Shown: in pieces, positions 17,865-42,976 of the stretch | Numbering within the stretch: position 1 is the stretch's first letter | How the letters are laid out: the number at the start of each line of letters is the position of its first letter | DNA from: Ovis canadensis | Lineage: Eukaryota; Chordata; Mammalia; Artiodactyla; Bovidae | Direction: 5' to 3' | DNA: 64,000 nucleotides | Assembly (NCBI RefSeq): GCF_042477335.2 | Contig: NC_091257.1 | Coordinates: 44,300,501-44,364,500, forward strand | Position numbers and translations under genes: made by a program | Notes under the pieces: generated by a model | What the model saw: only the letters and a program-made list of their open reading frames with translations | What the model was told of the DNA's origin: nothing | Database searches by the model: none

Positions 17865-17896
17865 ATGGAGAGGAGAGACAAAGCTGAGACAATCAG
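17865..17896 (+). pseudogene. OLAH: OLAH-like exon 1 (start codon, 11 codons), donor lost
   Basis: Encodes MERRDKAETIR up to the AG of Arg, matching the short OLAH N-terminal exon that precedes the NEK segment. The next bases are gggtgt instead of gt, so the expected donor is absent. Using the GT two bases further on would add two bases and break the frame. A 5' UTR exon may precede it, since an acceptor-like ttttaaaatag ends at about 17,724. Short, so less certain than the other blocks. Confidence 0.7.
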
Positions 17897-18029
17897 GGGT
17901 GTCACTGCGTGCAGTCTGGGTCTTTCCAGTCCCAGGTGCTCTAACACTCTGCCTTTGGAGGTTGCCCTTTTACATGGAAAGGGGCTTCTCAGAGAAAGCT
18001 CATTAGATGGCCATTGTCTCCAAGGCAAG

Positions 18030-18153
18030 GTATTTGTGTTTTTGCCACACCATGTGGCGTGTGGGATCCTAGTTTCCCCAACTAGGGACTGAACCCATGT
18101 ACCCTGCGTTGGAAGTGCAGAGTCTTAACCAATGGACCGCTAGTGAAGTCCTG
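18030..18153 (-). repeat. tRNA-Glu SINE, antisense
   Basis: ttgccacaccatgtggcgtg through gaccgctagtgaagtcct. It sits in intron 1 of the OLAH-like pseudogene. Confidence 0.85.
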
Positions 18154-18424
18154 TAAGGTATTGTAAATGGCACCAACTACTCACTATGTAAAATGGTACT
18201 GACTTGGTGGTGAGCTTAATGTGAAATTGTAAATCCATGACTTGGCCAAAAATGTGAAAGCAGGATTCCATTTACACCCAGACGTAGAGTAGAGGTCTGT
18301 GTCCCTGGCTCTGTCATCTGAAGCCTCCCAGGTATGCTATCCACTCCCTGCCACTTATAGGTCCACCTGTTTGTTGATGCTGAGAAAATAAGAAAAGGGC
18401 TAAAGTAGGGAAGTAGCTGTTAGG

Positions 18425-18545
18425 ATGAACAGGACTTGTGTTCCAATTCCTGACTTGTCACTGGCCAGGTGACCCTGGGCAAGTAACCTAATGTCTCTTG
18501 GCCTCAGTTTCTCCAACTGTCAAACCAGGATTAATAGAAAACATT
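18425..18545 (+). repeat. MIR SINE, sense
   Basis: Well-preserved MIR core: gtgaccctgggcaagtaacc and ggcctcagtttctccaactg. Confidence 0.85.
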
Positions 18546-18559
18546 CATTTTTGTTTTGT

Positions 18560-19053
18560 GGGTTACTAAAACTTTGCCGACTAAGGTCCATCTAGTCAAG
18601 GCTATGGTTTTTCCAGTAGTCATGTATGGATGTGAGAGTTGGACCGTGAAGAAGGCTGGGCGCTGAAGAATTGATGCTTTTGAACTGTGGTGTTGGAGAA
18701 GACTCTTAAGAGTCCCTTGGACTGCAAGGAGATCCAACCAGTCCATTCTGAAGGAGATCAATCCTGGGATTTCTTTGGAAGGAATGATGCTAAAGCTGAA
18801 AGTCCAGTACTTTGGCCACCTCATGCAAAGATTTGACTCATTGGAAAACACTTTGATGCTGGGAGGGATTGGGGGCAAGGAGGAGAAGGGGACGACAGAG
18901 GATGAGATGGCTGGATGGCATCACTGATTCGATGGACATGAATCTGAGTGAACTCCGAGAGTTGGTGATGGACAGGGAGGCCTGGCATGATGCAATTCAT
19001 GGGGTCGCAAAGAGTCGGACACGACTGAGTGACTGAACTGAACTGAACTGAAA
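18560..19053 (+). repeat. BovB 3' end, sense
   Basis: Starts ttgccgactaaggtccatct, covers the ORF2 C-terminal coding relic, and ends with the gaactgaactgaactgaa terminal repeat. Confidence 0.93.
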
Positions 19054-19212
19054 ACCAGGCTAAGTATTTTTGAGACATTTAATCAAAATGTAAGGAAGAT
19101 GCTATGATTGTCCTTATTTTACAGATGAGGACATTGAGACTTTCAGTCACTCAGGTCATTTTCCTAGTGTCATATCAACAGATTTGAATTCAGATCTCTT
19201 TATTTCCACAGG

Positions 19213-19412
19213 CTGTTGAAAGTGAAAGTCACTCAGCTGTAGTCTGACTCTTTGTGACCCCATGGACTATACAGTCCATGGAATTTTCTAGGCTAGAATA
19301 CTGGAGCGAGTAGCCTATCCCTTCTCCGACAGATCTTCCCCACCCAGGAATCAAACTCGGGTCTCGTGCATTGCAGGCAGATTCTTTACCAACTGAGCTA
19401 TCAGGCTGCTGA
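19213..19412 (-). repeat. Bov-tA SINE, antisense
   Basis: gtgaaagtcactcagctgta at the left, reversed head attctttaccaactgagcta at the right. Confidence 0.92.
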
Positions 19413-19867
19413 TAGTGAGTTAAATGATCACTAATCCCTCTCAACTCTAAAGTCTTAGAATTTTATGATTTAACCAAAACCAAAAATGAAGAAGGGGAAG
19501 ACAAAGAGAAGGCAAGTGCAGGTAGAAGGCTTCCACCCAGAGGACTGGCTCAGGAAGGTTAGCTTCTCTTGGTCTTCGTCTGTTTTCCTCAGGCAACACA
19601 GGAGATTGGATGGATGCAGAGGGCAGGCAAAAGCCCAAGAATGAGAGCGTTCTGCTTCATCCAGGCTTTGCAGCAATGAGCACTACCCTCCGTGGCTCTA
19701 CCTTCTTGTGAGATCTTGGCTGTGGGTTGCTATGGAGGACAGGCACCCCATCAATGTGGGTTCTGAGGGCCCACTGTGACACTGGCCTGGCTCTAAATAA
19801 GTGAAGGGAGCTCCTACCCCCACTCCCAAGGCAAAGAAAGGTGGTTTCATCTTGAAACGAATAATCA

Positions 19868-20090
19868 AATGGTTTCACTGGTGGCTCAGTGGTTAAGAAT
19901 CTGACTGCCAACACAGGAGACACAAGTTTGATCCCTGGATGCGGAAGATCTCCAGGAGAAGGAAATGGTAACCCAGTATTCTTGCCTGAGAAATCCCATG
20001 AACAGAGGAGCCTGGAGGGCTATAGTCCACGGGGTTCCAAAGAGTTGGAAATGACTTAGCAACTAAAAAAAAAAACAAAAACAAAAAACA
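19868..20090 (+). repeat. Bov-tA SINE with A-rich tail, sense
   Basis: Head tcactggtggctcagtggtt, Bov-A part to gaaatgacttagcaact, then an A/C-rich tail to about 20,090. Confidence 0.9.
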
Positions 20091-20600
20091 CAGCAATGAT
20101 CAAAGTGTCTACACCTAATTTTGTGTTTATGGCTTTGTATTGTTTTCCTTATAGAACTCCCCTATTTCTGCTGGTTACACAGTCTTCAGGTATGGCAAGA
20201 CTATTCTTATCCTGACATTTTTGTTCATGAGAATGCAAGTCATTGAAATAGACTGAAGTAGGGCTCCTTGGCTTTAAAAAATATGGACTGGTTTTAAAGT
20301 AATGTTGAATTCAAATCATTTTTCTAGACTCTTCAATAGCTTCCAGAAATAAGGTTCATAAAACGCACCCATTAGCTATGCAGTTTTTACCAAACTGTGG
20401 AAGGCACTATGGAAGGCTTTTGTATTCCTTTAAAAAATGACTCTAGCGTTTTTCCAGTAACTGGTTGATACCTATGAAGCTCTTATTTAGGGCTGATCCA
20501 TGGTCAGTGAGTTTGTTGATAATAGGATTAGTTAGAAGGAATGTAGCCTCAAGTACATAATGTCCCTCTTCACAAGAAAACATTAAAATTACCCCTTTGA
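20091..20600. other. No gene seen (pseudogene intron 1)
   Basis: AT-rich unique sequence inside the OLAH-like intron. No additional exon recognised. Confidence 0.5.
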
Positions 20601-20730
20601 GGGGACTTCCCTGACCATCCAGGAGTTAAGACTTTGCCCTCCAGTGCAGAGGGTGTGGGCCTGATCCCTGGTCGGGGAGTTAAGACCCCACATGCCCCAT
20701 GGCCGCCAAAAAACCAAAACATAAAAAACA
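20601..20730 (+). repeat. tRNA-Glu SINE, sense
   Basis: ggggacttccctgaccatcc to the ccatggccgccaaaaaacc tail. Confidence 0.88.
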
Positions 20731-21054
20731 TACTGTAACAAGTTCAATCAAGACTTAAAATGGCTCACATTAAAAAATCTTTTTTAAAAAATTGTCCTTT
20801 TGTTTTTTTCTCTTTAAATTAGCAATTATTAACATAAATGCCCTGATACAAGCCAAGGAGATTTTCTCCAAAAGTTATTCTTCCCCCCAAGAAAGGTTTT
20901 AACTTATGCTTAAGTTTGTGTAAAGTTTCTCATAATTGGTAGTGTTCTATTATTTTATCATGAAAACCAAAATCCTCTTTAAAGAACACATGTAAAGCTG
21001 ACAAAATCTCAATCATTGTTAGTTTTGGATGCTTGTAGAGATCAACTGGGCGTG

Positions 21055-21380
21055 CATCACCAGTAGTTCAGCTGGTAAAGAATCCACCTGCAATGCGGGA
21101 GACCCTGGTTCGATTCCTGGGTTGGGAAGATCCCCTGGAGAAGGGATAGGCTACCCACTCCAGTATTCTTGGGCTTCTCTGGTGGCTCAGAGGGTAAAGA
21201 ATCCACCAGCAATGCAGGAGACCTGGGTTCGATCCCTGGGTCGGGAAGATTCCCCTGGAGGGGGGCATGGTAACCCACTCCAGTATTCTTGCCTGGAGAA
21301 TCCCCATGGACAGAGGAGCTTGGAGGGTTACAGTCCATGGGGTCGCAAAGAGTCGGACACGACTGACTAAGCATAGTGCA
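21055..21380 (+). repeat. Bov-tA head-to-tail doublet, sense
   Basis: A Bov-tA that breaks off at ccactccagtattctt (21,170) is followed at once by a full Bov-tA starting gggcttctctggtggctcag. The same junction occurs at about 39,945. Confidence 0.9.
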
Positions 21381-22093
21381 GCACAGAGATCAACTGACTA
21401 AATGGGAACTTAAAAAAGAGAGAGGCGAGACAGATTTAATCACCATAGTAGAGCTGATTATCTCACATTTGACAAGACTATATAACTTTATAAATAATTT
21501 AATCATCAATTTGTAAACTTTACAGGAAGTGTTAAATTATGGATGATGCCAATGTATATATATTGAATGTTTTGTACATATATTTATGTTGAATATATAT
21601 ATATATATATTGAATTTTTAAAAAAGCAATTATCTGGAATACTAGGTGAAAGGATACTTGGACATTGTGGTAAAATTTCCAAAAATTATATGCTGATGCA
21701 AAAAGGTGTATTTAATTAACACTCAGAAGGGAGTGAAAATTACGTGCTTTGGAAAACTTACAGATGACTTGAAATTATGAAGACACTGAGATAAAACTGT
21801 GTAGATACAACTATTCCCTGAATTGGGAAAAAGGTGATTTCTAAATTAGCATGTCTATCCCTTTTAAATGTGCATATGAAATGTATTTCCTAAATATTAG
21901 ATATAATTGACTATTTCACTTACATCTATCAAAGTTTATATAAACTGTTAAAAATGAATCCATGAAAAAAATTTTTGGCCATTCTTGTTGGAAAAAAAAG
22001 GCAATCCCTTTATATATGAATACAGTCTCCTTATAATGAATTAAAATTTCTGTTAAAATACACCTAATTCAGTTAGGACAGGTGAACTGACTT
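21381..22093. other. AT-rich intronic sequence with a (TA)n run; no gene seen
   Basis: A pure TA run at about 21,595-21,610 lies between two gaat/tgaa half repeats. No exon recognised. Confidence 0.55.
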
Positions 22094-22365
22094 TGCTGCT
22101 GCTAAGTCGCTTCAGTCGTGTCCGACTCTGTGCGACCCCACAGACGGCAGCCCACCAGGCTCCGCCATCCCTGGGATTCTCCAGGCAAGAACACTGGAGT
22201 GGGTTGCCATTTCCTTCTCCAATGCATGAGAGTGAAAAGTGAAAGGGAAGTCGCTCAGTCCTGTCTGACTCTTAGCAACCCCATGGACTATTAGCCCACC
22301 AGGCTCCTCCATCCATGGGAGTTTCCAGGCAAGAGTACTGGAGTGGGGTGCCATTGCCTTCTCCG
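22094..22365 (-). repeat. Bov-A2 SINE dimer, antisense
   Basis: Two Bov-A units separated by the gtgaaaagtgaaagggaagt linker. It ends only about 45 bases before the exon 2 acceptor of the OLAH-like pseudogene. Confidence 0.95.
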
Positions 22366-22409
22366 GAACTGACTTTATATCATGTTAAATATTTGAATTT
22401 TCTCCCTAG

Positions 22410-22540
22410 GAATGAAAAAGTTGTGAACTGCTTACACCAGAATCTTAATGCACTTTTTAGGCTGGTTTGCTTTCCTTGGGGAAGAGGTGGCTCCACTTAC
22501 TTTGCCAAATGGGGCCAAGATATTCCTAATTTTGTGGAAG
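22410..22540 (+). pseudogene. OLAH: OLAH-like exon 2
   Basis: Acceptor tctccctag ends at 22409 and donor gtatgt starts at 22541, both intact. Reading after the leading G gives [11 protein letters not shown], then [17 protein letters not shown] and [12 protein letters not shown], a clear match to the OLAH N-terminal strand and oxyanion-region turn. The family motif CFPWAGGGS is altered to CFPWGRGGS, a Gly-to-Arg type change in a tight turn. Phase 1 at the end, as needed for block 3. Confidence 0.92.
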
Positions 22541-22847
22541 GTATGTGAACTTTTATCAGTAAGTAATTTGCAAGGTCAGATAACATGCACATACAAACAA
22601 TACAGGTTTCCTCACTGGGGGATAGTTAATATTAATAGATACTCAAGATTGCTCAATAATGTGATTTTTCTATTTCCAGAGCAAGAAATTCTGTTATCTT
22701 CCGCTACCAAATTAAACATGTTATACCATTTGTTAAGGCCAATAGGTCACTGAGATTCTGTTTAGACTCTGTTCAACTTTTTTCTGCCCCTTGTCTCTCT
22801 GTCTATTACGCTTTCTGTCTTAGGAATTATCTTTCTTTTTTTATTGT

Positions 22848-23040
22848 TGTTTAGTCTCTAAGTCATGTCTGACTCTTTTGCAATTCCATGGACTGCAGTC
22901 CATCAGCCTCTGTCCATGGGATTTCCCAGGCAAGAACACTGGAGTAGATTGCTATTTCCTTCTCCAAAAGATTTTCCTGACCCAGAGATCAAACCTGCGT
23001 CTCATGCATTGGCAAGTAGATTCTTTACCACTGAGCTTAT
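22848..23040 (-). repeat. Bov-tA SINE, antisense
   Basis: gtctctaagtcatgtctgac to ctttaccactgagcttat. Confidence 0.9.
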
Positions 23041-23197
23041 TGGTGGACTGTGAACTTGAACTTTTTCTCACAGCAGCATGAAAGTGAATTAAACACCACT
23101 CATTTTCTGATTATATTTTCTTATTCCCTGACATGGGTAGCTTAAGATAAGTCGAAAGCTTTGAGGGACAAAACACTGTACCTCTTACCTCTCTGAA

Positions 23198-23405
23198 ACT
23201 GTAAGTCGCTCAGTTGTATCCAACTCTTTGGGACCCCATGGACTGTAGTCTGCCAGGCTCCTCTGTTTACAGGATTCTTTAGGCAAGACTACTGGAGTGG
23301 GTTGCCATTTCCTTCTCCAGGGGATCTTCCCCACCCGGGGATCGGACCCAGATCTCCTACTTTGCAGGTAGATTGTTTATAGTCTGAGCCACCACAGAAG
23401 TCCCT
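23198..23405 (-). repeat. Bov-tA SINE, antisense
   Basis: gtaagtcgctcagttgtatc to gagccaccacagaagtccc. Confidence 0.92.
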
Positions 23406-23462
23406 TATATCTGAGGTCACAGCATCTAATTCTTGGCTGACATTGCAACACTGTTTTCTAAC

Positions 23463-23640
23463 TTTTGGCTCAGCTGGTAAAGAATCCGCCTGCAATGCAG
23501 GAGACCTGGGTTCAGTCCCTGGGTTGGGAAGATCCCCTGGAGAAGGGAAAGGCTACCCACTCCAGTATTCTGGCCTGGAGAATTCCATGGATAGTATAGT
23601 CCATGGGATTGCAAAGAGTCAGACACAACTGAGCAACTTG
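23463..23640 (+). repeat. Bov-tA SINE, sense
   Basis: ggctcagctggtaaagaatc to cagacacaactgagcaactt. With the antisense copy just upstream it forms an inverted SINE pair. Confidence 0.92.
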
Positions 23641-23984
23641 CACTTTTCCAACTTTTCCCTCTCTAGCCCTGTGGGAATACATACAGTGCTACTGACTTCT
23701 TGGCTTCTTAAAAGTAAAGCAACTATATTCCAACAGAAATTTAAAAAGAAAAAGTAGGCCTCCACCTGCAGTCTAGAACTTGCAACCTGTACCAGGTAAT
23801 TTACACATCTCTACAACAGGAAAGAGGCTGGAGAAATCGTACTTCACTTCTCCAGAATTTTCCTTTCTTCAGGGAGGTCCAGGTTGCCCCAGCAGTTCAA
23901 TGATCCCTTCAAACAGGTACTGTGTGTGTGTGTGTTATTCAGCTTCCCTACCTGTTCAATGAGAGGATGTTTCTTCTGTAAGAC

Positions 23985-24530
23985 ATTAAAAAAATTTTTT
24001 TATTGGATTATAGTTGATTTACAATGCTGCGTTAGTTTCACGTGTGCAGCAAAGGGACTCAGTTATACCTGTATTCACTGTTTTCTTTTTTTTCTTTTTT
24101 TATGGACACTTTCCCCATATAGGCTATTACAGAGTATTGAGTAGAGGTCCCTGTGCTATACAGCAGGTTATTATTTATTTTATATTTACTAGTGTGTATA
24201 TGTCAATCCCAGTCTTCCAATTTATATCCCTCTTATCCCTTGGTAACCATAAGTTTATTTTTTTACACCTGTGACTCACATCTATTTTGTAAATAAGTTC
24301 ATTTATAGTTTTTTAGATTTCACATATAAGCAATACCATATATTTGTCTTTCTGTGTCTGACTTACTTCACTCAGAGATTGACATCACTAGTGAAGATAA
24401 CAGTCTCTGAGTGAAGCAAGTGTCTGAAGTAGTGAATGTCATCTTCACTAGAGATGACAATCTCTAGGTCCTAGGTCCATTTATGTTGTGGCAAATGGCA
24501 TTGTTTCATTCTTTTCTTATGGCTGAATTA
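23985..24530 (-). repeat. L1 3' UTR, antisense, internally rearranged
   Basis: Begins ttattggattatagttgatt and continues as reverse L1 3' UTR. Between about 24,360 and 24,475 an extra ~70-base block made of inverted copies of the local sequence is inserted. A second short L1 3' end (attggaatacagttgattta) starts again at about 24,548. Confidence 0.85.
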
Positions 24531-24590
24531 TATTCTCTTTAATTTTTTATTGGAATACAGTTGATTTATAATGCTGTGTAAGGTACTTCT

Positions 24591-25554
24591 CAGAACTGGA
24601 AAGTTGGTTCAATAGCATAATCAAACAAACCATCAAGTATCAATTACTACTGTCTTTTCAATACTACTATTTTGAAATATTTGCTTCATATTTTATTTTT
24701 ACTTTTGATTAAGATCTCTATTAATCTTTTTAAAATGTAACTATTTTTAAAATGGTTTTAGATTTATGAAAAATTTGCAAAGTTGTTCTCAACTATCCCT
24801 CACCCAGCTTCCTCAATTATCTTCCACACACAGTTTCATGTCATTATATTTCAGAGACATTTACATGGATTATAATTTCAAATATTAGTTCTTTACCAGT
24901 ATTTTATCTTGTTTACCTTTCTTGAGAGTCGCCATTTATTCCTGTGTTGGAATACTTTCTGCCTTTTATGATTATCACCTTCTTTTGGGATCTTTTCCTT
25001 CTTTCTTTGTTTTCTTATTCCCAGCTCTTTTATTCCTATCCTCCATATCCATTTAAATACATTGCATCTATTACCTCACAGACAACATTCAGTCATTTTA
25101 AAAATCATTTTTGTCCCTTTAATCAATTTCTTTCCAGTATTCTGTCAGCCTTTGTGCAACTGTCTATTTCTGTTCAGGATGTTGAATTTCTGAGTTATAG
25201 TGTTTTTTCATATCTGCAATTTCTCATTTGAATTTATATTAGAGTTTTGTATTGTTTGCTTTGCTCTGTGAGCTTTTTAAAAAGCATGTTCAATCATTAG
25301 CTGAAAAAGTTTGACTCTTACTTTCTTCGTTTTGTGTGTTATGCTTACTTCTACTCATGATGAAGTACGTTGGATTTTCCTGACCCACAAAAACAGGTCA
25401 TTCTGGAACTTTGAGATGTTTTGAGGAATAAACTCAAGTTCTAAAACAGTGGGACTCAAATGCTACATTTTTGTAAGGAGGGGATGAGGAAGGAAATGAA
25501 CTTGCATTTACATATGCATAAAATACCTTTCAAGGCTTATGTTAATAATTGATA
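24591..25554. other. Old L1-like AT-rich sequence; no gene seen
   Basis: Part of it (gaaaaatttgcaaagttgtt, near 24,770) resembles an old L1 3' end in reverse. The remainder is unassigned. No OLAH-like exon is found here. Confidence 0.45.
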
Positions 25555-26068
25555 CCTTTGATTGCCCCTAGCATATTCAAAAGCAGAGACATTACTTTGC
25601 CGACTAAGGTCCATCTAGTCAAGGCTATGGTTTTTCCAGTGGTCATGTATGGATGTGATAGTTGGACTGTGAAGAAGGCTGAGTGCTGAAGAATTGATGC
25701 TTTTGAACTGTGGTGTTGGAGAAGACTCTTGAGAGTCCCTTGGACTGCAAGGAGATCCAACCAGTCCATTCTGAAGGAGATCAGCCCTGGGATTTCTTTG
25801 AAAGGAATGATGCTAAAGCTGAAAGTCCAGTACTTTGGCCACCTCATGCGAAGAGTTGACTCATTGGAAAAGACTGTGATGCTGGGAGAGATTGGGGGCA
25901 GGAGGAGAAGGGGATGACAGAGGATGAGATGGCTGGATGGCATCACTGACTCGATGGACGTGAGTCTGAGTGAACTCTGGGAGTTGGTGATGGACAGGGA
26001 GGCCTGGCGTGCTGTGATTCACGGGTTCTCAAAGAGTTGGACAAGACGGAGCAGCTGAACTGAACTGA
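25555..26068 (+). repeat. BovB 3' end, sense
   Basis: Nearly the same span as the copy at 18,560: starts with gcatattcaaaagcagagac and ends gcagctgaactgaactgaa. Confidence 0.93.
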
Positions 26069-26850
26069 AGAGCAAGATTTGGAGAGATTTTTGCATTGCA
26101 AGCCTTTTTGTACCTCTTGAATATTGAACCATGTATGAATTTAAAGTGCCCTGGAAATTTAAAAAAAAAATCTGTAAGAAAAAGCAAACCACCCAGTTAG
26201 TTGCTTACTCTGTTTATTAGTTCAAGGGTGCCCTCTTCTGTCACTATAAGTGATGTGCAGTTTATAAATAAATGACAACGTAGAGTTGGGGGGTTCATTC
26301 TTCTGATTCTTTGATGCTACCTGGCATCTGTAGGGCTTTTCTCTTCAGCCACTTCCTTCTTTATTTTTGCCATCAGGCCTGCAAGGGACGTCCCTCCCTT
26401 TCCAAGGTGCCTCTCTCAGCCACTACAACTCTGCTCCCTCATGCTTTCCAAGCCCCTTTCTCTCCATTTCCAGGTACCAACGCTCTGCCATGGAGGTCTC
26501 CCCAAAACCCATGCACTGGAGGAAGAGAGTCCCGCTACTAATATATAAATATATTTTACAAATTATTGAAGGCAATTTCATATGAGGTTTTCAATCAGCA
26601 GTTGACATAAGATAGATATTTCACATATTTTTCTGACTTTATATAAATGTAACGTACTGTAAATGTTCCTCTGAAGCTTGTTTTCTCCTCTGTTTTTTTT
26701 GAGATTCATCCCTTGGATATGTGACTACTTCACTGGCTTTTAACTAGGAATATATTATTCCACTGTGTGACTATATGTGTCTAGTCTTCTCTTTATAGGG
26801 ATTAAGGTCTTTTTCTGCTATGTGTAATAACTTCTGTGAGCAGTCTCATA
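26069..26850. other. No gene seen (pseudogene intron 2)
   Basis: Unique sequence plus a likely old L1 stretch (26,620-26,840: ggaatatattattccactgt). No exon recognised. Confidence 0.45.
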
Positions 26851-27072
26851 TACAGTTGACCTTTAAACAGTGCAGGGGTTAGGGATGATGAAGCTCTGCA
26901 CAGTTGAAAATCCACGTATAATGAGTAGCTGGCCCTCTGTTTTCAGGGTTCAGCATCTGCGGAATGAACCAGCTGCATTTCTTGTAGTACTGTAGTACTT
27001 ACTATTGAAAAAACTCTGCATATAAATGGACTCCCCCAGTTCAAACTCTTGTTGTTCAAGGGGCAACTGTAT
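26851..27072. repeat. Tigger-type (TcMar) DNA transposon remnant
   Basis: Ends are inverted repeats: tacagttgacctttaaacag on the left and gttcaaggggcaactgta on the right. The interior has the family's cagtgcaggggttaggg segment. Short, without transposase coding. Confidence 0.75.
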
Positions 27073-27291
27073 GTGTTCATGCATGCATGGGTAAAAATCT
27101 ATACTTAAAGGTGGAATTTCTGGGTATTGGAATAGGAATGTCTCTACTCCAAATCGTCCTCCAAAAGAACTGCAAAGATTTTTACTGCCAAACCAGCACA
27201 CGAAAATTCGTATCCCTTTATATCCTTGACAACACTGTTATTGCCAAGGCTTTTATTTTTTTGCCAATCTGTGCATGAAATTATTCTGATT

Positions 27292-27790
27292 TTGTTCTAT
27301 TATTTCCAGTGTTATTGAGATGTAAATGACTGGATAAGCTTGGAGCTTCCTAGGTGGCGTAGTGGTAAAGAATCCATCTGCTAAGGCAGGAAACGCAAGA
27401 GACGCAGGTTCAATCCCTGGATCGGGAAGATCCCTTGGAGGAGTAAACAGCAACTCACTCCAATACTCTTGCCTAAAAAATTCCATGGACAGTGGAGCCT
27501 GGAGGGCTACAGTCCACGGGGTTGCAAAGAGTCATACATGACTGAGTGACTGAGCACGCGCACACACACACACACACGCATGCACATGGTGAATAAGTTT
27601 AAGCTGAACGACATAACTTGATATGTATATATTGTGAAATGATCAACATGTAAGTTTAGTTAACATCTATCCTCTCAAATAGTTTCAGCTCTCTTTCCTG
27701 TGATAATTTTTTATCTATTCTCTTAGCAATTTTCAATATGCAATATAATATTGTTAACTATAGTCACCATGTTGTACATTATATCCCTAA
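27292..27790 (-). repeat. Old L1 3' UTR, antisense, split by a Bov-tA
   Basis: 27,292-27,340 (agtgttattgagatgtaaat) and 27,590-27,790 (attgttaactatagtcacca) are both reverse L1M 3' UTR. The Bov-tA and a CA microsatellite lie between them. Confidence 0.75.
27341..27585 (+). repeat. Bov-tA SINE, sense, with (CA)n tail
   Basis: Head ggagcttcctaggtggcgta carries a 10-base duplication around the caggaaacgcaagagacgca point. The SINE ends in gactgagtgactgagcac, then a CA-rich microsatellite. Confidence 0.9.
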
Positions 27791-27911
27791 AGTGTATTCA
27801 TAGTAATCAAAATAGTATCCTATTGACATAAAAACAGACACACAGGCAAATGCAATAGAATTGAAAGTCCAGAGATAACCTCCCAAATACAGTCAACAAA
27901 CATTTGACGAG

Positions 27912-30372: not shown

Positions 30373-31890
30373 TAGAGTCCTGGATATCCTGGAGTGCAAA
30401 GTCAAGTGGGACTTAGGAAGCATCACTATGAACAAAGCTAGCGTAGGTGATGGAATTCCTACTGAGCTGTTTCAAATCCTAAAAGATGATGATGTTAAAG
30501 TGCTGCATTCAATATGCCAGCAAATTTGGAAAACTCAGCAGTGGCCACAGGACTGAAAAAGGTCAGTTTTCATTCCAATCCAAAAGAAAGGGAATGCCAA
30601 AGAATGCTCAAACTATGCACCATTGCACTCATTTCACACGCTAGTAAATTAATGCTTGAAATTCTCCAAACTAGGCTTCAACAGCACATGAACCGAGAAC
30701 TTCCAGATGTTCAAGCTGGATTTAGAAAAGGCAGAGACCAAATTGCCAACATCTGTTGGATCAAAGAAAAGATAAGAGAATTCCAGAAAAACATCTACTT
30801 CTGTTTCATTGACTACACTAAAGCTTTTGTCTATGTGGATCATGACAAACTGTGGAAAACTCTTAAAGACATGGGAATACCAGACCACCTTACCTGCCTC
30901 CTGAGAAACCTATATGCAGGTCAAGACACAACAGTTAGAACCAGACATGGAACAATGGACTGGTTCCAAATAGGGAAAGGAGTACATCAAGGCTGTATAT
31001 TGCCACCCTGCTTATTTAACTTATATGCGGAGTACATCATGTGAAATCCTTGGCTGGATGAAGCACAATCTGGAATCGAGATTGCTGAGAGAAATATCAG
31101 TAACCTCAGTTATGCAGATGACACCACTGTTATGGCAGAAAGTGAAAAGGAACCTCATCAAGAACCTCTGATGGAAGTGAAAGAGGAGAGTGAAAGAGCT
31201 GGCTTAAAACTCAACATTCAAAAAACAAAGATCATAGTATTCGGTCCCATCACGTCATGGCAAATAGATGGGAAAACAATGGAAACAGTGACAGACTTTA
31301 TTTTCCTGGGCTCCAAAATCACTGCAGATGGTGACTGCAGCCATGAAATTAAAAGACGCTTGCTTCTTGTAAGAAAAGCTGTGACCAACCTAGACAGCAT
31401 GTTTAAAAGCAGAGACATTACTTTGCTGACAAAGGTCGGTCTCTTCAAAGCTATGGCTTTTCCAGTGGTCATGTATGGATGTGAGAGTTGGACTGTGAAG
31501 AAGGCTGTGCACCGAAGAATTGATGCTTTTGAACTATGGTGTTGGAGAAGACTCTTGAGAGTCCCCTGTTCTGCAAGAAAATCCAACTCATCAATCCTAA
31601 AGGAAATCAGTCCTGAATATTCATTGGAAGGACTGATGCTGAAGCTGAATCTCCAATACTTTGGCCACCTGATGCAAAGAACTGATTCATTGGAAAGGAC
31701 CCTAATGCTGGGAAAGATTGAAGGCAGGAGGAGAAGGGGATGACAGAGAATGAGATGGTTGGATGGCATCACCGACTCGATGGACATGAGTCTGAGCAAG
31801 CTCCGTTAGATGGTGAAGGACAGGGAAGCCTGGTGTGCAGCAGTCCACAGGGTCGCAAAGAGCCAGACACAACTAAGCGACTGAACAACA
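30373..31890 (+). mobile_element. BovB (RTE) LINE, 5'-truncated, reverse-transcriptase relic
   Basis: The largest BovB here. Two open frames remain: 30,514-31,044 (fingers and palm, with GFRKGRDQIANI, CFIDYTKAF and FQIGKGVHQGC) and 31,132-31,743 (thumb and C-terminus). Between them the YADDTTVMAES motif is readable, but the frame is cut by a TGA just after ATG at 31,042 (Arg codon changed to stop). The 3' end is normal. Lies in intron 2 of the OLAH-like pseudogene, about 370 bases before its exon 3. No endonuclease domain, so immobile. Confidence 0.95.
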
Positions 31891-32257
31891 AGAAGCCGTA
31901 GACAGTCATTCTGTTAGCACAGGCTCATGACTGGAATTTTAAATTCCCTCTTATGTTTTTTCTCTTCTAGTTATACCATTTACCTTATTGTGAGTCAAAC
32001 TGCACACATGTGATTCATCCAGTGTTTCTAAATGTTTTTTAAAAATTCTAAATGTTGGAGAGTATTTTTCAGATATGTAGTCTGCTGTAGCTTGTGTTCA
32101 TTTACTCAGCAAATTCTAAAATGTTTCTCTCCTTACATTTAACTACTATTATTCACATCTTTGAAACTCTTCCCATCATACTAACATAAGCCCTTTCACA
32201 GTATCACAGCAACCCTCATGCCATCTGCACACGTTAACCGTCTTCCTTTACTTCCAG

Positions 32258-32394
32258 TGCATGCCATGCGGCTTGCTGGGAGAAAGCCGGTTTGAAGAAC
32301 ATTTTGCAAGTGACATGCATCAGGTGGTTGATGAAATTGCCTGTGCCCTGCTGCCGATTATCCAGGGTGAAAATTTCACATTTTTTGGCCACAG
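32258..32394 (+). pseudogene. OLAH: OLAH-like exon 3 with a 2-base frameshift
   Basis: Acceptor ttacttccag ends at 32257; donor gtattt starts at 32395. In the incoming frame it reads VHAMRLAGR and then breaks. From 32276 on, the other frame reads GESRFEEHFAS, then VVDEIACALLPIIQ and FTFFGH. Two bases are therefore missing in the AGR-E-S codons (about 32283). It ends with the GGC CAC AG that starts the GHSMG nucleophile elbow. Confidence 0.92.
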
Positions 32395-32416
32395 GTATTT
32401 AACCTCTGTTTTAATT

Positions 32417-32446
32417 TTTTTTTTTATTGTTGTTGTTGTTGTTTTT
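32417..32446 (+). repeat. (GTT)n simple repeat
   Basis: T run followed by attgttgttgttgttgtt, just downstream of pseudogene exon 3. Confidence 0.9.
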
Positions 32447-33505: not shown

Positions 33506-34260
33506 AGCTGTAGAATTTTAAGGTTAAGTCATAAATATCAGAGTTCTGTCTGCCTCTTACTCAGTTCGACCTTTGGCAACTTCCTTGGGTTTCTGAATTA
33601 AGTTTCTTCCTATGTGAAACTTGAATGATAATGGCTCCATTTCTGAGGATTAAATGAATAATAACCATAAATTACTTGGCATTATGGTAAAGATTCAGTA
33701 CATTTTGGCTCCTGAATTATATATACACACAGATACGATTGAGGAAAAAAAAAGAAAAGAAAAATCGAAGTATCCATTATCCCAGATAATCCTTCAGAAT
33801 TTTGATGTGGCTCCATAGTATTTTTGCATGTGGGGATCCTATTTTATATTTCTTCCTAATTATTCCCCCCACTTAAACTATTGCTATGGAGATCTGCTAT
33901 CACCGCAAGATGACTATCAATTCCTTTTAAGATAATACTTATTTCTATCTTTTTTTCTGTTATAAAAGCACTCTGATGACATTTTTTGTAGAAAATTTAG
34001 TATACATTTCTTATAAATTTCTTAAGGATCACATGTCCAGAATTTAGGTTAATGATATACACACTGATAGAGCACTTGATAGAAATTTCCAAATCACCTT
34101 CAGTTTACACTCCAGCAGCAATGACCATGGAACTGAGTTTCCTTTGTTCATTGCCTGAAGATATTTGCAAAAAAATGCTCTCGATCAATACTGTCTACAA
34201 AATATAACTACGTAATGTCTACAGCAGTTCATAAACTTTTTATTCCTGGCATTGCTTTAA
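33506..34260. other. No gene seen (pseudogene intron 3)
   Basis: AT-rich unique sequence. No exon recognised. Confidence 0.5.
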
Positions 34261-34344
34261 TACTGGGTTGACCAAAAGGTTTGTTTGGGTGTTTCTGTAA
34301 CACAGTATGGAAAAACCCGAACAAACCTTTTGGTCAACCCAATA
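34261..34344. mobile_element. Mariner-type MITE, palindromic hairpin
   Basis: An 84-base near-perfect palindrome: left arm tactgggttgaccaaaaggt, right arm ccttttggtcaacccaata. It is bounded by TA, as expected for mariner insertion. RNA from either strand would fold into a long hairpin. Confidence 0.9.
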
Positions 34345-35112
34345 CTTCTAGGTGCATTGAGGGGATCAACGAGATTTTATGTGTGGTTTATCTATCAATA
34401 TTTACCATATTAGAAAATAAAACTATGAATCTTTCAAGATATTTAACATTAATAATCCCCTTATATGCCGATATAAAGAATACATATTTTATGCAAGACT
34501 ATATTCTCTCAAAAAAGCACTGTGGGAAGAGTGGCACTATTTTACACTTTGGCACACATTTAATGCCTGGCTTATTAGAAGGCAGCTAAGATTCTCTCTT
34601 TTGCATTCCAACTGTGCTGATAACCCATGACATACATAGCATATGGAAAACTCAACTATGCTCTCATAAAAAAAAAAAAAAGAGTTTAAAAGGGAAACAT
34701 TTTAGCAATATTCTAAAAATGGCTTTAACCTCACAGACCACCTGAAAAGGTGACAGGAACTCCTGCAAGTCCCCAGACTATACCTTGAAAACTGCTGATA
34801 AATATTAAATACATAGTGACATCTATCTTTCAGGGAGGAAAGGAAATTTAAATTGATTTCAAGACATGGTGGAAATCAGTACTCAATCTTAGTTTGAATT
34901 ATCTAGGATGTCTTGAAACACTGCTGATATGGCTGCAAATCATTGAAAACCTACCATTTACAAATAAGTTAGCTATTATTCAACTAATGTAAGCTCTCCT
35001 TTGGTCTGTTTCTTGATCGTTGCTGTGTTTATGCTTGTTCTTGTGGATTTCTGATGTATTACCATGAGTTTTGTTGAATAGTTATTATCATGTTTTTCTT
35101 CCCCAAATGTAG
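34345..35112. other. No gene seen (pseudogene intron 3)
   Basis: AT-rich. A 15-base A run is at about 34,668-34,682. No exon recognised before the acceptor at 35,112. Confidence 0.5.
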
Positions 35113-35211
35113 TATGGGATCTTATACTGCTTTTTTTACCGTGCTACATCTCAAATAAAAATATAATCTAGAACAGTACATTTATTTGTGTCAAGTATAA
35201 GCCCTCCTTAT
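35113..35211 (+). pseudogene. OLAH: OLAH-like exon 4 (catalytic serine exon) with stop and frameshift
   Basis: Acceptor aaatgtag ends at 35112 and donor gtaagt starts at 35212. Joined to exon 3 it completes GHSMGS and continues YTAFFTVLHLK. Then a TAA at 35156-35158 sits where the family has Glu. After KYNLE one base is missing (about 35174), and the shifted frame reads VHLFVSS. The active-site serine codon (AGT) is intact, but the product would end in this exon. Confidence 0.92.
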
Positions 35212-35564
35212 GTAAGTAATTTCATTTTCCTTAGGGAGGGTGGTGGAAAGGAGAGAAGTGCAGTGGGGAAATCAAGTCATTGTTTTCCTTTCTGGTGAGT
35301 TTTGATCCAGTAGACACCGTGATGAATAAAAGATAGTATTGGTTAATGAAACACTCAAATGTCTTTCACTGTCATCTTCTCATCTTTGCTCTGAAATGCA
35401 CTTTAACTGTTTCCTGGTCAGTGCCTGCACTGGCCCAGGCATCTCCGATGAAAACTATTGATTCTAAGTGTATTTTCCTCCATTCTGAGTCAAAAGAGAA
35501 CTTTCAGCAAACTAACTGGATCATTCTTTTCTTTTTAATAAAAAAATGTTTGTTTGTTTGTTTG

Positions 35565-36011
35565 TTTGTTTTTGGCTGTGCTGGGTCCTCATTGCTGTGC
35601 ACAGCTTCCCCTAAGTTGCAGAGAGCCAGGGCTATTCTCTAGTTGTGGTGCAGGCTTCTCATTGCGGGGGGCTTTGCTGTGGAAAGAGGCTCCAGGGCGC
35701 ACAGTCTTCAGTAGTTGCTGCACGTGGGCTCAGCAGTTGTGTCACACAGGCTTAGCTGCTCCCCGGCATGTGGGATCTTCCTGGACCAGGGATTGAACCA
35801 GTGTGCCCTGCACTACCAAGGCAGATTCTTGTCTGGTGGTCAGGTACTCCTGTCTGCCATCAGGTGATGTTCTGTAAGCACTTCTGTGTCTGAAGGTGTA
35901 GTCCTGACGTATCCCTGGAGAGAGACGTACTCTGCGTTCCACCTAGGTCTCCGCCATCTTGTTCTCCCCGCAAGGCAGATTCTTAACCCCTGGACCACCA
36001 GGGAAGCCCTG
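35565..36011 (-). repeat. CHR-type tRNA-Glu SINE, antisense, interrupted
   Basis: Host SINE occupies about 35,565-35,830 and 35,971-36,011. Removing the 140-base insert restores a normal CHR end (cagattcttaacccctggac). Confidence 0.92.
35831..35970 (-). mobile_element. L1 5'-end-only insertion flanked by a 14-bp target-site duplication
   Basis: Perfect direct repeats caaggcagattctt lie at 35,817-35,830 and 35,971-35,984. On the minus strand the insert starts ggggagaacaagatggcgga and looks like the first ~140 bases of an artiodactyl L1 5' UTR. It has no L1 3' end and no poly(A). The target site on that strand reads TT|AAGAAT, close to the L1 endonuclease consensus. The duplication and cut site are seen directly; the L1 5' UTR identity is by recognition. 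Confidence 0.7.
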
Positions 36012-36119
36012 ATCAGAGAATTCTCAAGTCACCAAAAGGCAGAGTAGAGAGCGTTCAGTGTCTGAACAGGTGCTTTAAATGAAATGTCAGACTAATGTTT
36101 TTACTGTTTCATGTCAAAG

Positions 36120-36284
36120 GCCCAAATTCGTTTCCTCAAAGATGATTTGTGTGAAGAAGAAATTGCCTTTGCACTAAAGAAAGTGGGAGGCATGCCTGAG
36201 GATTTTGTTGATGACGACGAACTGAGTCAAGAATCTGTTACCAGAGTGTTAGCAGATCTTCACATTTTGAATGATACCATCCAA
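36120..36284 (+). pseudogene. OLAH: OLAH-like exon 5
   Basis: Acceptor catgtcaaag ends at 36119. The block is fully open and reads AQIRFLKDDLCEEEIAF, then KKVGGMPEDFVDDDEL and LADLHILNDTI, equivalent to the family's lid/cap segment (…EEQ…GGTPKH… and …ADL…). The donor is unclear: the only GT nearby (36285) is in a weak context and leaves a phase that does not match exon 6, so the donor may have decayed too. Confidence 0.85.
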
Positions 36285-36513
36285 GTCATTAAGGCACGTT
36301 TTCTCTCTCTCTTTTTTAAAAAATTATCTATGGAAGACGCAGCTTGGCTGTTCTCTGAGGACGCTTATCCAGGAAGGCAGAGTTTGACTTGTTTTCTTTT
36401 GAGGCCCACCTGTGATATTTTTGTTGCCTTAAAATGGAGCCTGGGCATGGAAATTACATCAATCAAGGATGAACAGGGCATCTTTATCTTTTTTAAAAAA
36501 TGTGGTTCAATGT

Positions 36514-36596
36514 GTGTTGGGTTGGCCAAAAGTTTGTTTGAGTTTTTCCAGAAGATCTTACAAAATCCCCAAATGAACTTTTTGGCCAACCCAGTA
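36514..36596. mobile_element. Mariner-type MITE, palindromic hairpin
   Basis: Left arm gttgggttggccaaaagttt, right arm aactttttggccaacccagt. Same family as 34,261-34,344, in pseudogene intron 5. Confidence 0.9.
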
Positions 36597-38709
36597 TGCT
36601 TTATCACATAAAAAACATTAGTTGCATAAATTACTAATGTCAAAGGATGCTCATCTTCTTAGGGGAACAGCAGAAGGGGATCCCTACTTATTAAATATGT
36701 GGAGGTGATTCAGGACAAGGGAGTGATTTGCTTCTTGGGGGAATTTTGTTCCAGAACTCATTTGGCTCCATGACACCTGACTATTCCTGTCTCCTAAGAG
36801 GTCTCATTGACATATGATTCTTCTAATAGGACTGAAGTCCTAATGTTCCAGATACTGGCCCTAATAAACTGAAACCACAAGGTTCTCCCTTTTCTAACCT
36901 CCTCACAGCAGGTCCTGTGGGGCCAGCATTTGGCCCTCAGTCGCTATTATATACCATCATGCATTTCTTCAGTTTTGTCTGGCTCTTGTCTCCTTTGGGG
37001 AGGAGCTGGACACACAGGTCTGAGTTCCTTTTCTTTCTGCCACAAAGCCTGGAGCTGAACCTAGGGCCTCCACAGGCAGTGCCTGTGAGTAGAAGTTTAT
37101 ACAAATAGCTTTAAAAAAGAAAAAAAGTGGAGCAGACCTGAAGCACCTTGAGAACAGGGACAATCCTGTTCATGTTTATCACATCTCTGCGTTCACGCCA
37201 ATGCCCACCTCTACTCCACCATTAGGGCCACTAGCTGCCCCGGTCTGTCATCTCTCTCCATTTCTACCCCAACCGTCCGAGCAAATGTGGTCCCCACAGG
37301 GCTGTGCTGTCTGTCTTCCTGGCTTAGCAGAGTCAGAATCCAAGAAACACCATTCCAAGTCTGAGATCCCGTACCCCCACCAAAGGAAACGCAATCCAGA
37401 GCACTATGGACATTAGTGACATACTGTAGGCAAAAGCTGCTTTTTAATTAAGTCTCGTACAAACATGCCTTCTGTGGAGGCTGTTCACCAGGATCCAGAC
37501 CCCTGGCCTAGTGGCTGTGAGATTTGGACCCAGGGTCCCGTCTCTCAGAGGAAGGGATGCTGAGAGTAAACCCCTCAAGGTGTGGTGGGTGAGGATGCAA
37601 GGAAGTCATGTTTAGGAGACGCCGTGGATATGGCACACAACAAACCACCCTCGATTTTAAAAAATCCAACCCAACAATTCACTACCAGAGGTTCTGGTGA
37701 CTTTGGGGAATTAACATTTGTTAAGAAGAAGCTTGAGTGTTGGAAAGGGAGCCAAGGTTCAACAACAGACCCCGAGAGAAATTGAAATAGAGAAGTTCAT
37801 GACTCATGGGTCGTGGAGGAGGTCCACGGCGCACCTAGTGGAGCCACATGGGAAGGTCAAGGCCGACTGCAGGCAGAGAGGTGGCTGGACCTGACGGACA
37901 TGCCCTTAGGCGTGGGTGGAGAGCTTTGGGGTTCCCCGGCTAAGTCCGGATTGGTCAATTCGAACCCCGAAGAGCTGGTTTTGGTAAACTTCATGGGAGG
38001 TTTATCTAAAAGGTACACAAGGGAAGGCTCTAGGGGGCCCAGAGCAGCTGTCACCTAGGCCGCTGGGGGAGGGTCACAACAGGAACTCACCCGTTCGTGA
38101 CTCTGCACGTGCTCCAGGAGGGCTGAGTGTAAGGTCCAGGCTCTCACAAGCTGCCTGGCAGCACAGCATGGCTGCTGAGGCACCAATATTATAAAGCAGT
38201 TTAGCTAAACTCTCAAGAACTCTCAAAAGAAACCTCCCCCAGACTGAAAATAAAAGTCACTCACAAGGATATTCCACTCACAGAATAAAAAAAAAAAGTG
38301 TTTTAACAGTCTCACCCTCTCCGCAGCAAATCAAATCTCAGGAGCTACTTACAAGGATTCACATTCTCTCTTCAAATCTCAAATGTCCTAAGCTTGTTCT
38401 GGATTCTCTTCATTCTGCTTCTGCTCCTTCCCCTTCCTCGGTCTGCTTTCCTCTCTCCACCTCTCTGCAGCACTCAACTTTTCCCAATATACAGGAAATC
38501 AGGCCTGGAGTGTCCCTCCACCCTCTCCTTGCCCATCACCCACCCCCCAAGGCTCAAAGCCTGGAGGTCAAAAGAAAAATCCGAGGCAGGAGGGAAGGCT
38601 TTGCAGCTCCACTTCACTCAAGCTGTCCTCCTGTGCTACTCGGACGAACACACAGTCCTCTTCTCTCTCTGGGACCCTGACAACACACACGTCAGGCTGT
38701 CTGTCATCA
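36597..38709. other. No gene seen; includes a GC-rich unexplained block (37,560-38,330)
   Basis: Several short open frames have no recognised domain. The block at about 37,560-38,330 is more GC- and CpG-rich (cggctaagtccggattggtc, gaaccccgaagagctggttt) and has an aataaa at about 38,250. It could be an old LTR, but I cannot name it. Confidence 0.4.
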
Positions 38710-39340
38710 TCCCAGGGCTCTCAGATGTTCTCCTTAAAAAATTTTTTTTCTTTTCGTTTCTCTTTGGATCATTTCTATTAACCATCTTCACGTTGACTTT
38801 GCTCAGCTGTATCAAATCTACTGATGAGCTTGTCAAAGGAATGCCCTATTGCTGCTCCTGCTTATTTCTAGAATTTCTTTTGGACTCTTTCTTGCAGTCT
38901 TCACCTCTCTAGTGAACTTCCCTATTTGTTCACTTATGTCCATCTTTCCTATGAAACCCTTTGGCATCTCCATCATAGCGACTGTCAAGCCCTTGTCTGA
39001 CAATCCCAACATCTGGGTCTTATTTGAGTCTTGCACATGTGTGCTGAGTCACTTCAGTCATGTCCAACTCTGTGCAACCCTATGGACTCTAGTCTGCCAG
39101 GCTCCTCTGTCCGTGGGGTTCTCCAGGCAAGAATACTGGAGTGCGCTGCCATGGCCTCCTCCAGGGGATCTTTGCCACCCAGGGATTGAACCGGAGTCTT
39201 TTATGTCTCCTGTTTTGGCAGGTGGGTAAGTTACCACTGGGCCACCTGGGAAGCCCATTTAAATCTTATTCTTTTAATTACTTTGCCTCTTGACAATGGA
39301 GTCATTTCTTGCTTTTTGTGTCTGATCATCTTTTTTTAAT
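38710..39340 (-). repeat. Probable old LINE segment, antisense, split by a Bov-tA
   Basis: T-rich sequence (gctgtatcaaatctactgat, ggcatctccatcatagcgac) of old-LINE appearance, continuing after the Bov-tA as aaatcttattcttttaatta. Family not certain. Confidence 0.35.
39040..39257 (-). repeat. Bov-tA SINE, antisense
   Basis: gctgagtcacttcagtcatg to gggccacctgggaagccc. Confidence 0.92.
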
Positions 39341-39831
39341 TTAAAGCTAGGTATCATGCATAAAACAGATATTCTATTGAAAAATATCATGCATGAAACT
39401 AACATAAATATATTTTATGATTTGAGCACATCTCCTCTGGCAGGCCATGAATGTAGGGAGTTGGGTCAATCCAGACTGGAGCTGAGCTGAGTTTCAGTTT
39501 TGTTGCTACTATGGGTACACTTCAGGGCAATGGTTCTCCCAAGTTACTGTGTGCTTACTGTGGGGACTGGACTGGAGAATTTTTCTCAATTTTTCTGTCT
39601 CTCTCCAGGCTCTCCCCACTGACAGCTGTAGTTTGGCCCCCTGTGTGTGATGCTAGCCTCTGAGGTAACAAGGGGAGCTGTTGGACATCCGAGCCAATCT
39701 TCAGCTTCAGTCTTAGTCAGGTCCTCTGTGTCTAGGCCTTGTGGGTGGGTCTGGTGGGTATCGGGTCGAAGTTTCCAGTCCCTCCCCAGTAGTAGAAGAT
39801 TTTGCCTTGGCTTTTGTATAGAATTGGGGGC
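39258..39831. other. No gene seen
   Basis: Unique intronic sequence. The minus-strand frame 39,586-40,038 overlaps the SINE doublet and is not a gene. Confidence 0.5.
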
Positions 39832-40160
39832 CTGGTGGCTCAGCTGGTAAAGGATCCACCTGCAACGCAGGAGACCCCAGTTTGATTCTTGGGTCACGAA
39901 GATCCCTTGCAAAAGGGATAGGCTACCCACTCCAGTATTCTTAAGCTTCCCTGGTGGCTCAGATGGTAAAGAATCTGCCTGCCTGTGGGAGAACTGGGTT
40001 TTATCCCTGGGTTGGGAAGATCCTCTGGAGGAGGACATGGCAACACACTCCAGTATTCTTACTTGGAGAATCCCAATGGACAGAGGAGCCTGGCAGGCTA
40101 CAGTCTATGGTGTTGCAAGGATTCAGACACAACTGAGTGACTAAGCATAGCACAGGGGGC
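39832..40160 (+). repeat. Bov-tA head-to-tail doublet, sense
   Basis: First unit ends at ccactccagtattctt (about 39,943), and the second starts aagcttccctggtggctcag. Same junction as at 21,170. Confidence 0.9.
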
Positions 40161-40974
40161 CCAAGACCCTTCCCATTCCTTCCCCCAGGGTAGAGGGTTA
40201 TGTTTCCATCCCCTACATCCATGGGTCTTCCCATGTGCCCTGGGTGGGGGGCGTGGAGGGGGAGTGTTTGATGCCCCTGCTCCGACAACTGAGATTTCCG
40301 CTTGGTAGGAGGGGAGGACTTGACTGGGGGCAGGGTTAGTGTCCATCTGATGGTCATATCCAATTTCCTGCTGCCACCTGCCCTGGAGAGAGGGCTATTT
40401 CTGACCTCCTGCCTTGTTCCTAGTCTTTCTCATGAACCCCTAGTGGGGGCCGTGGACAGAAGCCTGTGAGTCAGTGTGGACTGCATCTGACACATCACCC
40501 CATGCTTGGTCCCCAGCACTTGAACATTTGCAGCTGGTTCCTTCTCACCCACATGGACAGCAGACACCCCTTCATCCTGTGCTCTGCCCACATGAGCCAG
40601 TCCATGTGACCCATCTCTCCTTAGAAGGGCCCAATTTTCCTTGGAGTTCGGTTTCTGGTTTGCCTTGCAAACTCAGCTTCCTGATGAGTTCAAGAATTTA
40701 TGGTTTTGCAGTTTGTAGGGCTTTTTTCTTTGTTAGGCTACAAGTGGTGCTCCTGGTTTTCTACATTCCAGGCAGAAGAGGGAATTCTCGCCCGGACTAT
40801 TGAAAGAGACAATCCTTTGTCCCCTTCAGTCTGCTCCACACATTGTACCAAAACGGATGACTGTCAAGTCCAGTCATGATGTGCCTTGCACTAAATCCTC
40901 CTGGTGGCTTCCTGACTCTCTTAGGATGACCAAATCCCTTCAGGAGACCTACACGTGGCCCTTGCTTGCTTATT
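40161..40974. other. No gene seen
   Basis: Unique intronic sequence of the OLAH-like pseudogene. Open frames lack any recognised domain. Confidence 0.5.
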
Positions 40975-41093
40975 ATTATTTCTTTTTGGGCACACCACGT
41001 TGCATGTGGGATCCTAGTTTCCTGACCCAGGATTGAACCTGCACCCCTTGCATTGGAAGCTTGGAGTCCTAACCACTGGACCACAGGGAAGTC
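40975..41093 (-). repeat. tRNA-Glu SINE, antisense
   Basis: gggcacaccacgttgcatgt to ctggaccacagggaagtcct. Confidence 0.88.
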
Positions 41094-41918
41094 CTCTCGC
41101 TTGCTTCTTTGACCTCAATTTATCCCAATTCTCCATTCACTCATGGAACAAAAGCCATCTGGTTTGTGCTCACCTGGTCCCTCTTCCCCTACCATCTCTC
41201 TGCCCTTTGCCAAGTTTTTCCTATCTATTCAGATCTCAAGTCTAACTCCATGTTCCAGGGAGTCCCTGCTTGATGTCACTCCACCCCCGCTTGTCAAGTG
41301 TTCACAGATCACCCTGAACTTGGTGACTCATCTGTTCAATCGTCTGGTGACTTCATTAATGTCTGTCTCCCCAGCCAGTCTCTAAGTGGCAGGAGGAAAG
41401 GGACCGTGCTTACCCAAGTGTCCCTAGGGACTAACACAGCACCCAGCACCAGCTCAGCGAATGGTTTCCTGCTGTTGTGATGAAACTGAGAATCAGCAGA
41501 ATCAACTCAGGGGCCCTATGTCCATAAATCTGCTTCTGTTCTGTGCACAGCAACCCTCTGCCAAACAATGGAGGGCTGGGGGATAGAGAGGTGGCCATTT
41601 CAGGGAAATGACAGTTAAAGATACTATATAGCTAGTCCCATTTTGTGTTGGACTGGGTACCCAGGTGCCACCTGACTGCACCTGACTATTCTAGAAGCCA
41701 GAAGATCTTGGAAAATAACCTGGACCACAGTGACTCTCAGACAGGTGCTGACATGTATATGTGCCATGGATTAAAAAAAATAAAATGTTTGTATTGCTGT
41801 AAACAGTAAAAGGGAAGGAAGTGAGGACTTGTTTGATTTAAATGAGCTTATTAATAGGAAAAGATTCTAGGGGGTGTCTATTATGAAATGTTACTAACCG
41901 GCTCCTTTATATTTGCAG
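41094..41918. other. No gene seen (pseudogene intron 5)
   Basis: Unique sequence up to the exon 6 acceptor. No extra exon recognised. Confidence 0.5.
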
Positions 41919-42001
41919 CTGTGACACACCCTCTAAGACTCGTCTTTCTTGTGACATAACATGCTTTTCTGGATCTGAAGATATACCAGTGGTTATGGAA
42001 G
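41919..42001 (+). pseudogene. OLAH: OLAH-like exon 6
   Basis: Acceptor tttatatttgcag ends at 41918 and donor gtgaaa starts at 42002. In frame from 41920 it reads CDTPSKTRLSCDITCFSGSE and then DIPVVME, a strong match to the OLAH strand carrying the acidic residue region (…SCDLTCFVGSED… in the family). Ends in phase 1, matching exon 7. Confidence 0.92.
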
Positions 42002-42096
42002 GTGAAATGATTTTGATGGTTTGAGGTGTTTTATTGAGATATCTGATGATTTCCATGCCAGAGGTGCTGGCATGCCTTACAGCACAGATCTGATTT

Positions 42097-42350
42097 ATTT
42101 TTTATTTTATTTATTTATTATTTTTTTAAATTTAATTTTTAAAAAATTTTATTTTTACTTTATTTTACTTTACAATACTGTATTGGTTTTGCCATACATT
42201 GACATGAATCCACCACGGGTGTACATGCATTCCCAAACACAGCCACTATGGAGAACAGTGTGGAGATTCCTCAAAAAATTGCAAATAGAACTGCCTTATG
42301 ACCCAGCAATCCCACTGCTGGGCATACACACCGAGGAAACCAGAATTGAA
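42097..42350 (-). mobile_element. L1 insertion with 5' inversion (twin priming)
   Basis: Direct repeats agatctgattt at 42,086-42,096 and 42,351-42,361 bracket the insert. Its left part is a T-rich tail plus reverse L1 3' end (tactgtattggttttgccat). At about 42,241 it flips to sense L1 ORF2 (atggagaacagtgtggagat through cccagcaatcccactgctgg). This is the classic twin-priming arrangement, in intron 6 of the pseudogene. Confidence 0.9.
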
Positions 42351-42556
42351 AGATCTGATTTTTTAAAACGTCCTGTACTAGTACATAAATCCAGTCACAC
42401 ACTTTTTTTCATACACTACAAGGGGATGTGTGATATCCATGCTTTTTATCCTTAAACTATTGCCATACTTCAAGTAAGTGTCTTTTTTAAACAATTCACT
42501 TGTATAAAAATGGTCTGGTCAGTATAGGGTACAAACGCCAAACAAAAGTATTAGTG

Positions 42557-42576
42557 TTAACAACAACAACAACAAA
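42557..42576 (+). repeat. (CAA)n microsatellite
   Basis: ttaacaacaacaacaacaaa, six repeat units. Confidence 0.9.
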
Positions 42577-42845
42577 ACTCTCAACTGGCAGTTACATGGA
42601 GGAGAAAAGTGGTCCCAGTTTTATCTAGTGTAAATGGAGAGATGTCAGTGGTGTGTAAAATGAGAGAAGGCAGGTGATACCGCTGTGTACTGATAGGTCT
42701 CTGAGAGATTAAAAATTCAGGATGCACGGAACATGAGCCCATGGAAGTAACCCTACCTCTAGTGAGCTCTTAGAAAAGTAACACCCGGAAGTAAATCTGT
42801 GGGTGGCGGCGTCATCTGTTATTAAACACAATTCTGTTTTTTCAG

Positions 42846-42976
42846 CCTGGAAAGATGTAACCAGTGGAAGTGTTGTGCTTCCAGGACACCACTTCTATCT
42901 TCTGGAACATTCCAACACAAGCTTCATCAAGAATTACCTAACCAAGACTCTAGAAATATCAGTGCTCGCCTCTTGA
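42846..42976 (+). pseudogene. OLAH: OLAH-like exon 7 (terminal coding exon, TGA at 42974-42976)
   Basis: Acceptor tctgttttttcag ends at 42845. With the G of exon 6 it reads AWKDVTSGSVVLPGHHFYLL, then FIKNYLTKTLEIS and a stop. The catalytic-His segment is present (GHHF for GGHF/GDHF). Relative to the family, three residues are missing just before VLPG (TSGNAKIYQLPG in human versus TSGSVVLPG). Frame fully open to a C-terminus of normal length. Confidence 0.93.

Follow-up and report, generated by a model that had tools for sequence, protein, structure and literature searches.

The 64,000-nucleotide stretch of sheep DNA analysed here (hereafter the window; contig C13, 44300501-44364500) contains, in their proper order, the remains of OLAH, the gene for thioesterase II or medium-chain fatty acid synthase thioesterase, as located by tblastn with the human protein. 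We conclude, for the one assembly to which our analysis is confined, that the locus is very probably an OLAH unitary pseudogene, the sole copy found, situated between MEIG1 and ACBD7. As such it is a known and ordinary kind of thing. Exons 3 and 4 each carry a frameshift, exon 4 has a stop codon besides, and two splice donors are lost. Any transcript that keeps exons 1-3 in frame ends at a TGA in exon 3, before it reaches the catalytic serine, so that this copy is unable to make full thioesterase II.

Seven OLAH exons between MEIG1 and ACBD7

The human OLAH query is identical at 265/265 residues to PDB 4xjv_A. The pieces that it matched are collinear, lie without exception on the plus strand and touch human residues 11-115, 123-132 and 135-264. 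The stronger ones are found at 22408-22539 (E 9e-15), 32248-32286 and 32282-32392 (E 3e-9), 36114-36362 (E 9e-5, the part beyond ~36271 being intron), 41914-42000 (E 1e-6) and 42845-42973 (E 2e-10). The remaining two, 35093-35155 and 35176-35205, are weak when taken alone (E 0.23), and the assignment of exon 4 to this place rests on order and splice phase.

From these matches and from splice phase, seven exons can be laid out on the plus strand. The exon 1 remnant (17865..17896) consists of 32 nucleotides with a start codon; it is the weakest assignment of the set, its 11 residues ranking second among 1201 plus-strand ATG starts, and despite this weak sequence score its place and phase fit OLAH. 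Exon 2 (22410..22540) is open and has its splice sites. Exon 3 (32258..32394) carries the GH of the GHSMG motif together with a frame change and a TGA, and exon 4 (35113..35211) retains the remainder of the motif and carries a TAA and a second frame change. Exon 5 (36120..36271) is open and has no donor. Exon 6 (41919..42001), also open, retains the aspartate equivalent to human residue 212 (codon at 41980), and exon 7 (42846..42976), which has a 3-residue gap relative to the human protein, is open up to its own stop and encodes the histidine equivalent to human residue 237 (codon at 42890); the numbering of the three catalytic residues is the one we assume for OLAH. The acceptor AG is present at 6/6 sites and good donors at 4/6, those of exons 2, 3, 4 and 6.

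The neighbours agree with this identification. ACBD7 lies downstream as three exon pieces on the minus strand (46101..46539; 77-88% identity to the human protein), and MEIG1 ends the interval on the other side, ~4.2-8.6 kb before the window and thus ~22 kb or more upstream of exon 1. The order MEIG1, OLAH, ACBD7 is that of the human genome as well. The preliminary description of this DNA had proposed seven OLAH exons in order next to ACBD7, and the collinear matches, the splice phase and the position of ACBD7 bear this out, with exons 1 and 4 weak on their own.

The window holds other features besides. Intron 2 of OLAH contains a reverse-transcriptase remnant (30499..31740, plus strand; Pfam PF00078, in two open stretches), and a second PF00078 remnant is present at 14249-15028 on the minus strand. 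A 340-codon open frame at 50560-51582 (minus strand) occupies a GC-richer stretch (0.49-0.56); it had no match in Pfam and none in the PDB up to E 1, and is probably open by chance, in the neighbourhood of a promoter.

Lesions and residual coding capacity

Five lesions interrupt the gene. The first is at the exon 1 donor, where CAG is followed by ggg in place of GT; this site scores -0.4 bits, compared with 5.6 to 9.5 bits for the donors of exons 2, 3, 4 and 6, all scores being computed with assumed splice-site frequencies. Exon 3 has a 2-base frame change at ~32283 and, after it, an in-frame TGA at 32293-32295. In exon 4 a TAA at 35156-35158 is followed by a 1-base frame change at ~35174. The fifth lesion, additional to the four first reported, is the exon 5 donor, which reads TGATAC (-20 bits) at the position indicated by phase and the human protein. 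The 2-base loss in exon 3 and the stop and 1-base loss in exon 4 are as the preliminary description gave them. Its claim of a lost exon 1 donor holds as far as the absent GT is concerned; the lesion need not be disabling by itself, because a cryptic donor GT at 17936..17937 on the plus strand (exon end 17935; CAG followed by GTGCTC, 3.6 bits) would let exon 2 be read in frame. The donor after 18029 scores higher (5.5 bits) but does not join exon 2 in frame. The product made through the 17935 donor ends at the exon 3 TGA after 79 residues.

A transcript that splices around the lesions into a full open frame had been named as the observation that would overturn this picture, and such splicing was modelled with 400 exon combinations in which exon 7 was always retained, exons 1 and 5 had four donors each, and annotated acceptors and spliced introns were used. 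The resulting set contained 4320 ATG-started frames encoding 114 distinct peptides. A full frame occurred in 0/400 modelled transcripts, in keeping with the earlier claim that this copy cannot make a full protein. The longest modelled frame, of 195 codons, arises when exons 2, 3, 4 and 6 are skipped and is without the serine and the aspartate. All three catalytic codons occur together in 26/4320 frames, corresponding to 4 distinct peptides of 97-171 residues, the upper value being reached by skipping exons 2, 4 and 5; 26/26 of these frames are without exons 4 and 5 and without the GHSMG motif. Exons 5-7 (36120-42976) are open to the stop and, were splicing to take place at the lost donor, would give a frame of 97 codons that starts at an ATG of exon 5.

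It is conceivable, and in our estimation improbable, that the locus still yields a short peptide, an exon-skipped product or a non-coding transcript. Open frames for such products exist, of 79 residues by way of the cryptic donor, 97 across exons 5-7, up to 171 with exon skipping, and 195 codons at most, but no modelled frame joins GHSMG with the other catalytic residues. A functional type II thioesterase would show GHSxG, Asp and His within a single open frame, whereas at this locus the codons for these residues survive in a broken one. We take this as a gene without a functional enzyme and consider it unlikely that the remnants would fold into a hydrolase.

A single OLAH locus found in the assembly

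Whether the locus is a unitary pseudogene or a decayed duplicate depends on the rest of the genome, which comprises 2.97 Gb in 42 contigs. With human OLAH as query, E<=10 and scoring of the best candidates, 5 matches were obtained, 5/5 of them at this locus with 37-59% identity. An intact copy should have shown in this search, because four of the locus matches reach 53-59% identity. DNA searches with exons 2, 3, 5 and 7 (4/7 exons) gave 1 genome match each, the locus itself; masked bases, which include some in the flanks, are invisible to searches of this kind. Since all human OLAH matches fall here and four of the seven exons are single-copy, a unitary pseudogene is the most likely explanation. 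In a single scan of a prokaryote collection, exon 5 found no relative.

Among the tblastn matches above 22 bits in 160 kb of flank (100 kb upstream, 60 kb downstream) are three more to OLAH, all weak (E 0.46, 1.4 and 2.4). As candidates for a second copy these were rejected as noise.

The preliminary description had left room for an intact tandem copy upstream, which would make the present locus a decayed duplicate. Neither the genome search, the flank search nor the searches with four exons uncovered a second copy, and we regard an intact OLAH elsewhere in this genome as highly improbable, to the extent that the assembly is complete and unmasked; a copy that is masked or missing from the assembly would be the one way to revive the idea. 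A search with the family profile PF00975 adds little in either direction: its silence elsewhere says little because the same profile missed the OLAH exons of this locus too. Genome-wide, only two PF00975 matches were found at E<=0.001, both free of stops and lying within C11:58991492-58992320, and we read these two pieces as fatty acid synthase. Fatty acid synthase on 11 together with OLAH on 13 would agree with the chromosome numbering of sheep.

Past constraint, timing of loss and ruminant milk fat

The decay of this OLAH copy is far from complete, because positions shared among thioesterases have been retained more often than the rest. Placement by hand from the tblastn matches located 244 of the 265 residues, 134/244 of which match the human protein. 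Positions common to human OLAH, RifR (3fla) and the thioesterase 7e3z are retained in 30/39 cases, versus 104/205 elsewhere (p 0.003); under two alternative definitions the figures were 48/69 versus 86/175 and 64/94 versus 70/150 (p 0.004 and 0.0015). Of the 9/39 changed positions, which were judged against these thioesterases rather than an intact ruminant OLAH, one falls within the LPGR motif and another is next to the catalytic histidine. Codons for all three catalytic residues persist, and exons 2, 5, 6 and 7 have stayed open. The exons give the impression of long constraint and shallow decay.

A lesion clock gave point estimates of 15-34 million years with limits of 5-79 million years, the upper limits ranging over 35-79 million years. 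The clock counts 5 lesions, with both lost donors included, and uses assumed rates; its indel ratios span those of local repeats, taken in 224 kb from repeat pairs that overlap and so are not independent. Because the limits are too wide, it cannot separate loss on the ruminant stem from loss in bovids or in sheep and goats. Two accounts of the timing, both of them versions of the unitary pseudogene explanation, may be set beside it.

OLAH helps some other mammals to make medium-chain milk fats. The first account places its loss early, on the ruminant stem or in the ancestor of Pecora, together with the shift of chain release to fatty acid synthase, so that some of the lesions would be shared relics; we think this quite possible, at somewhat less than an even chance. 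According to one report, bovine fatty acid synthase goes on making short chains unaffected when the thioesterase is blocked, and a mammary-specific thioesterase transcript is not seen in cattle (PMC11816880). Other papers describe chain release in the ruminant mammary gland as independent of thioesterase activity (PMC11898469) and name the malonyl/acetyl transferase domain as the part that ends the chains in ruminants (PMC9104349). These statements favour early loss, as do the upper limits of the clock and the count of 0 occurrences of "OLAH" in the main text of PMC11816880. Against it stand the small number of lesions, just 5, with four exons open, and point estimates that lean younger than the ruminant stem.

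Loss may instead have come later, in the bovid or the sheep/goat line, either once selection on the gene was relaxed or through a change in another tissue. We give this account close to an even chance: the point estimates of the clock and the constraint still visible in the exons speak for it, and against it stand the very wide limits and the assumed rates of that clock.

The broken sole copy of OLAH fits the reported mode of ruminant milk-fat synthesis, and the order and cause of events are not given by it. OLAH may have died since the release switch left it without a use, or owing to events in other tissues. We infer from published statements that its loss would have been tolerated since the mammary fatty acid synthase itself releases short and medium chains. 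The broader proposition, that all ruminants lost thioesterase II and that its decay marks genetically when mammary fatty acid synthase took over short- and medium-chain release, seems to us doubtful. Among the titles listed we found no report of OLAH loss, which is no proof of absence, the gene symbol being also a surname. The locus gives a genetic footing to the published claim that ruminant mammary chain release proceeds without a separate thioesterase, and lesion comparison between species would make it datable. The animal would also be a natural knock-out of OLAH, which has been studied in the human placenta (PMC9495588).

Three known systems put the sheep locus in perspective. Human OLAH (4xjv) is alike in exon order, in 134/244 placed residues and in its neighbours MEIG1 and ACBD7, and its catalytic Ser, Asp and His codons are also present in the sheep copy; by comparison with it, the sheep copy has two frameshifts, one stop and two lost donors, and is not translatable through. 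The thioesterase domain of fatty acid synthase, which releases mainly C16 chains, belongs with OLAH to Pfam family PF00975, but it is a fused domain, whereas OLAH is a separate medium-chain enzyme. The whey acidic protein gene of cattle provides a precedent, being likewise a milk-related gene that a frameshift has destroyed in a ruminant (PMC2688934); its product is a milk protein, whereas OLAH is an enzyme of lipid synthesis.
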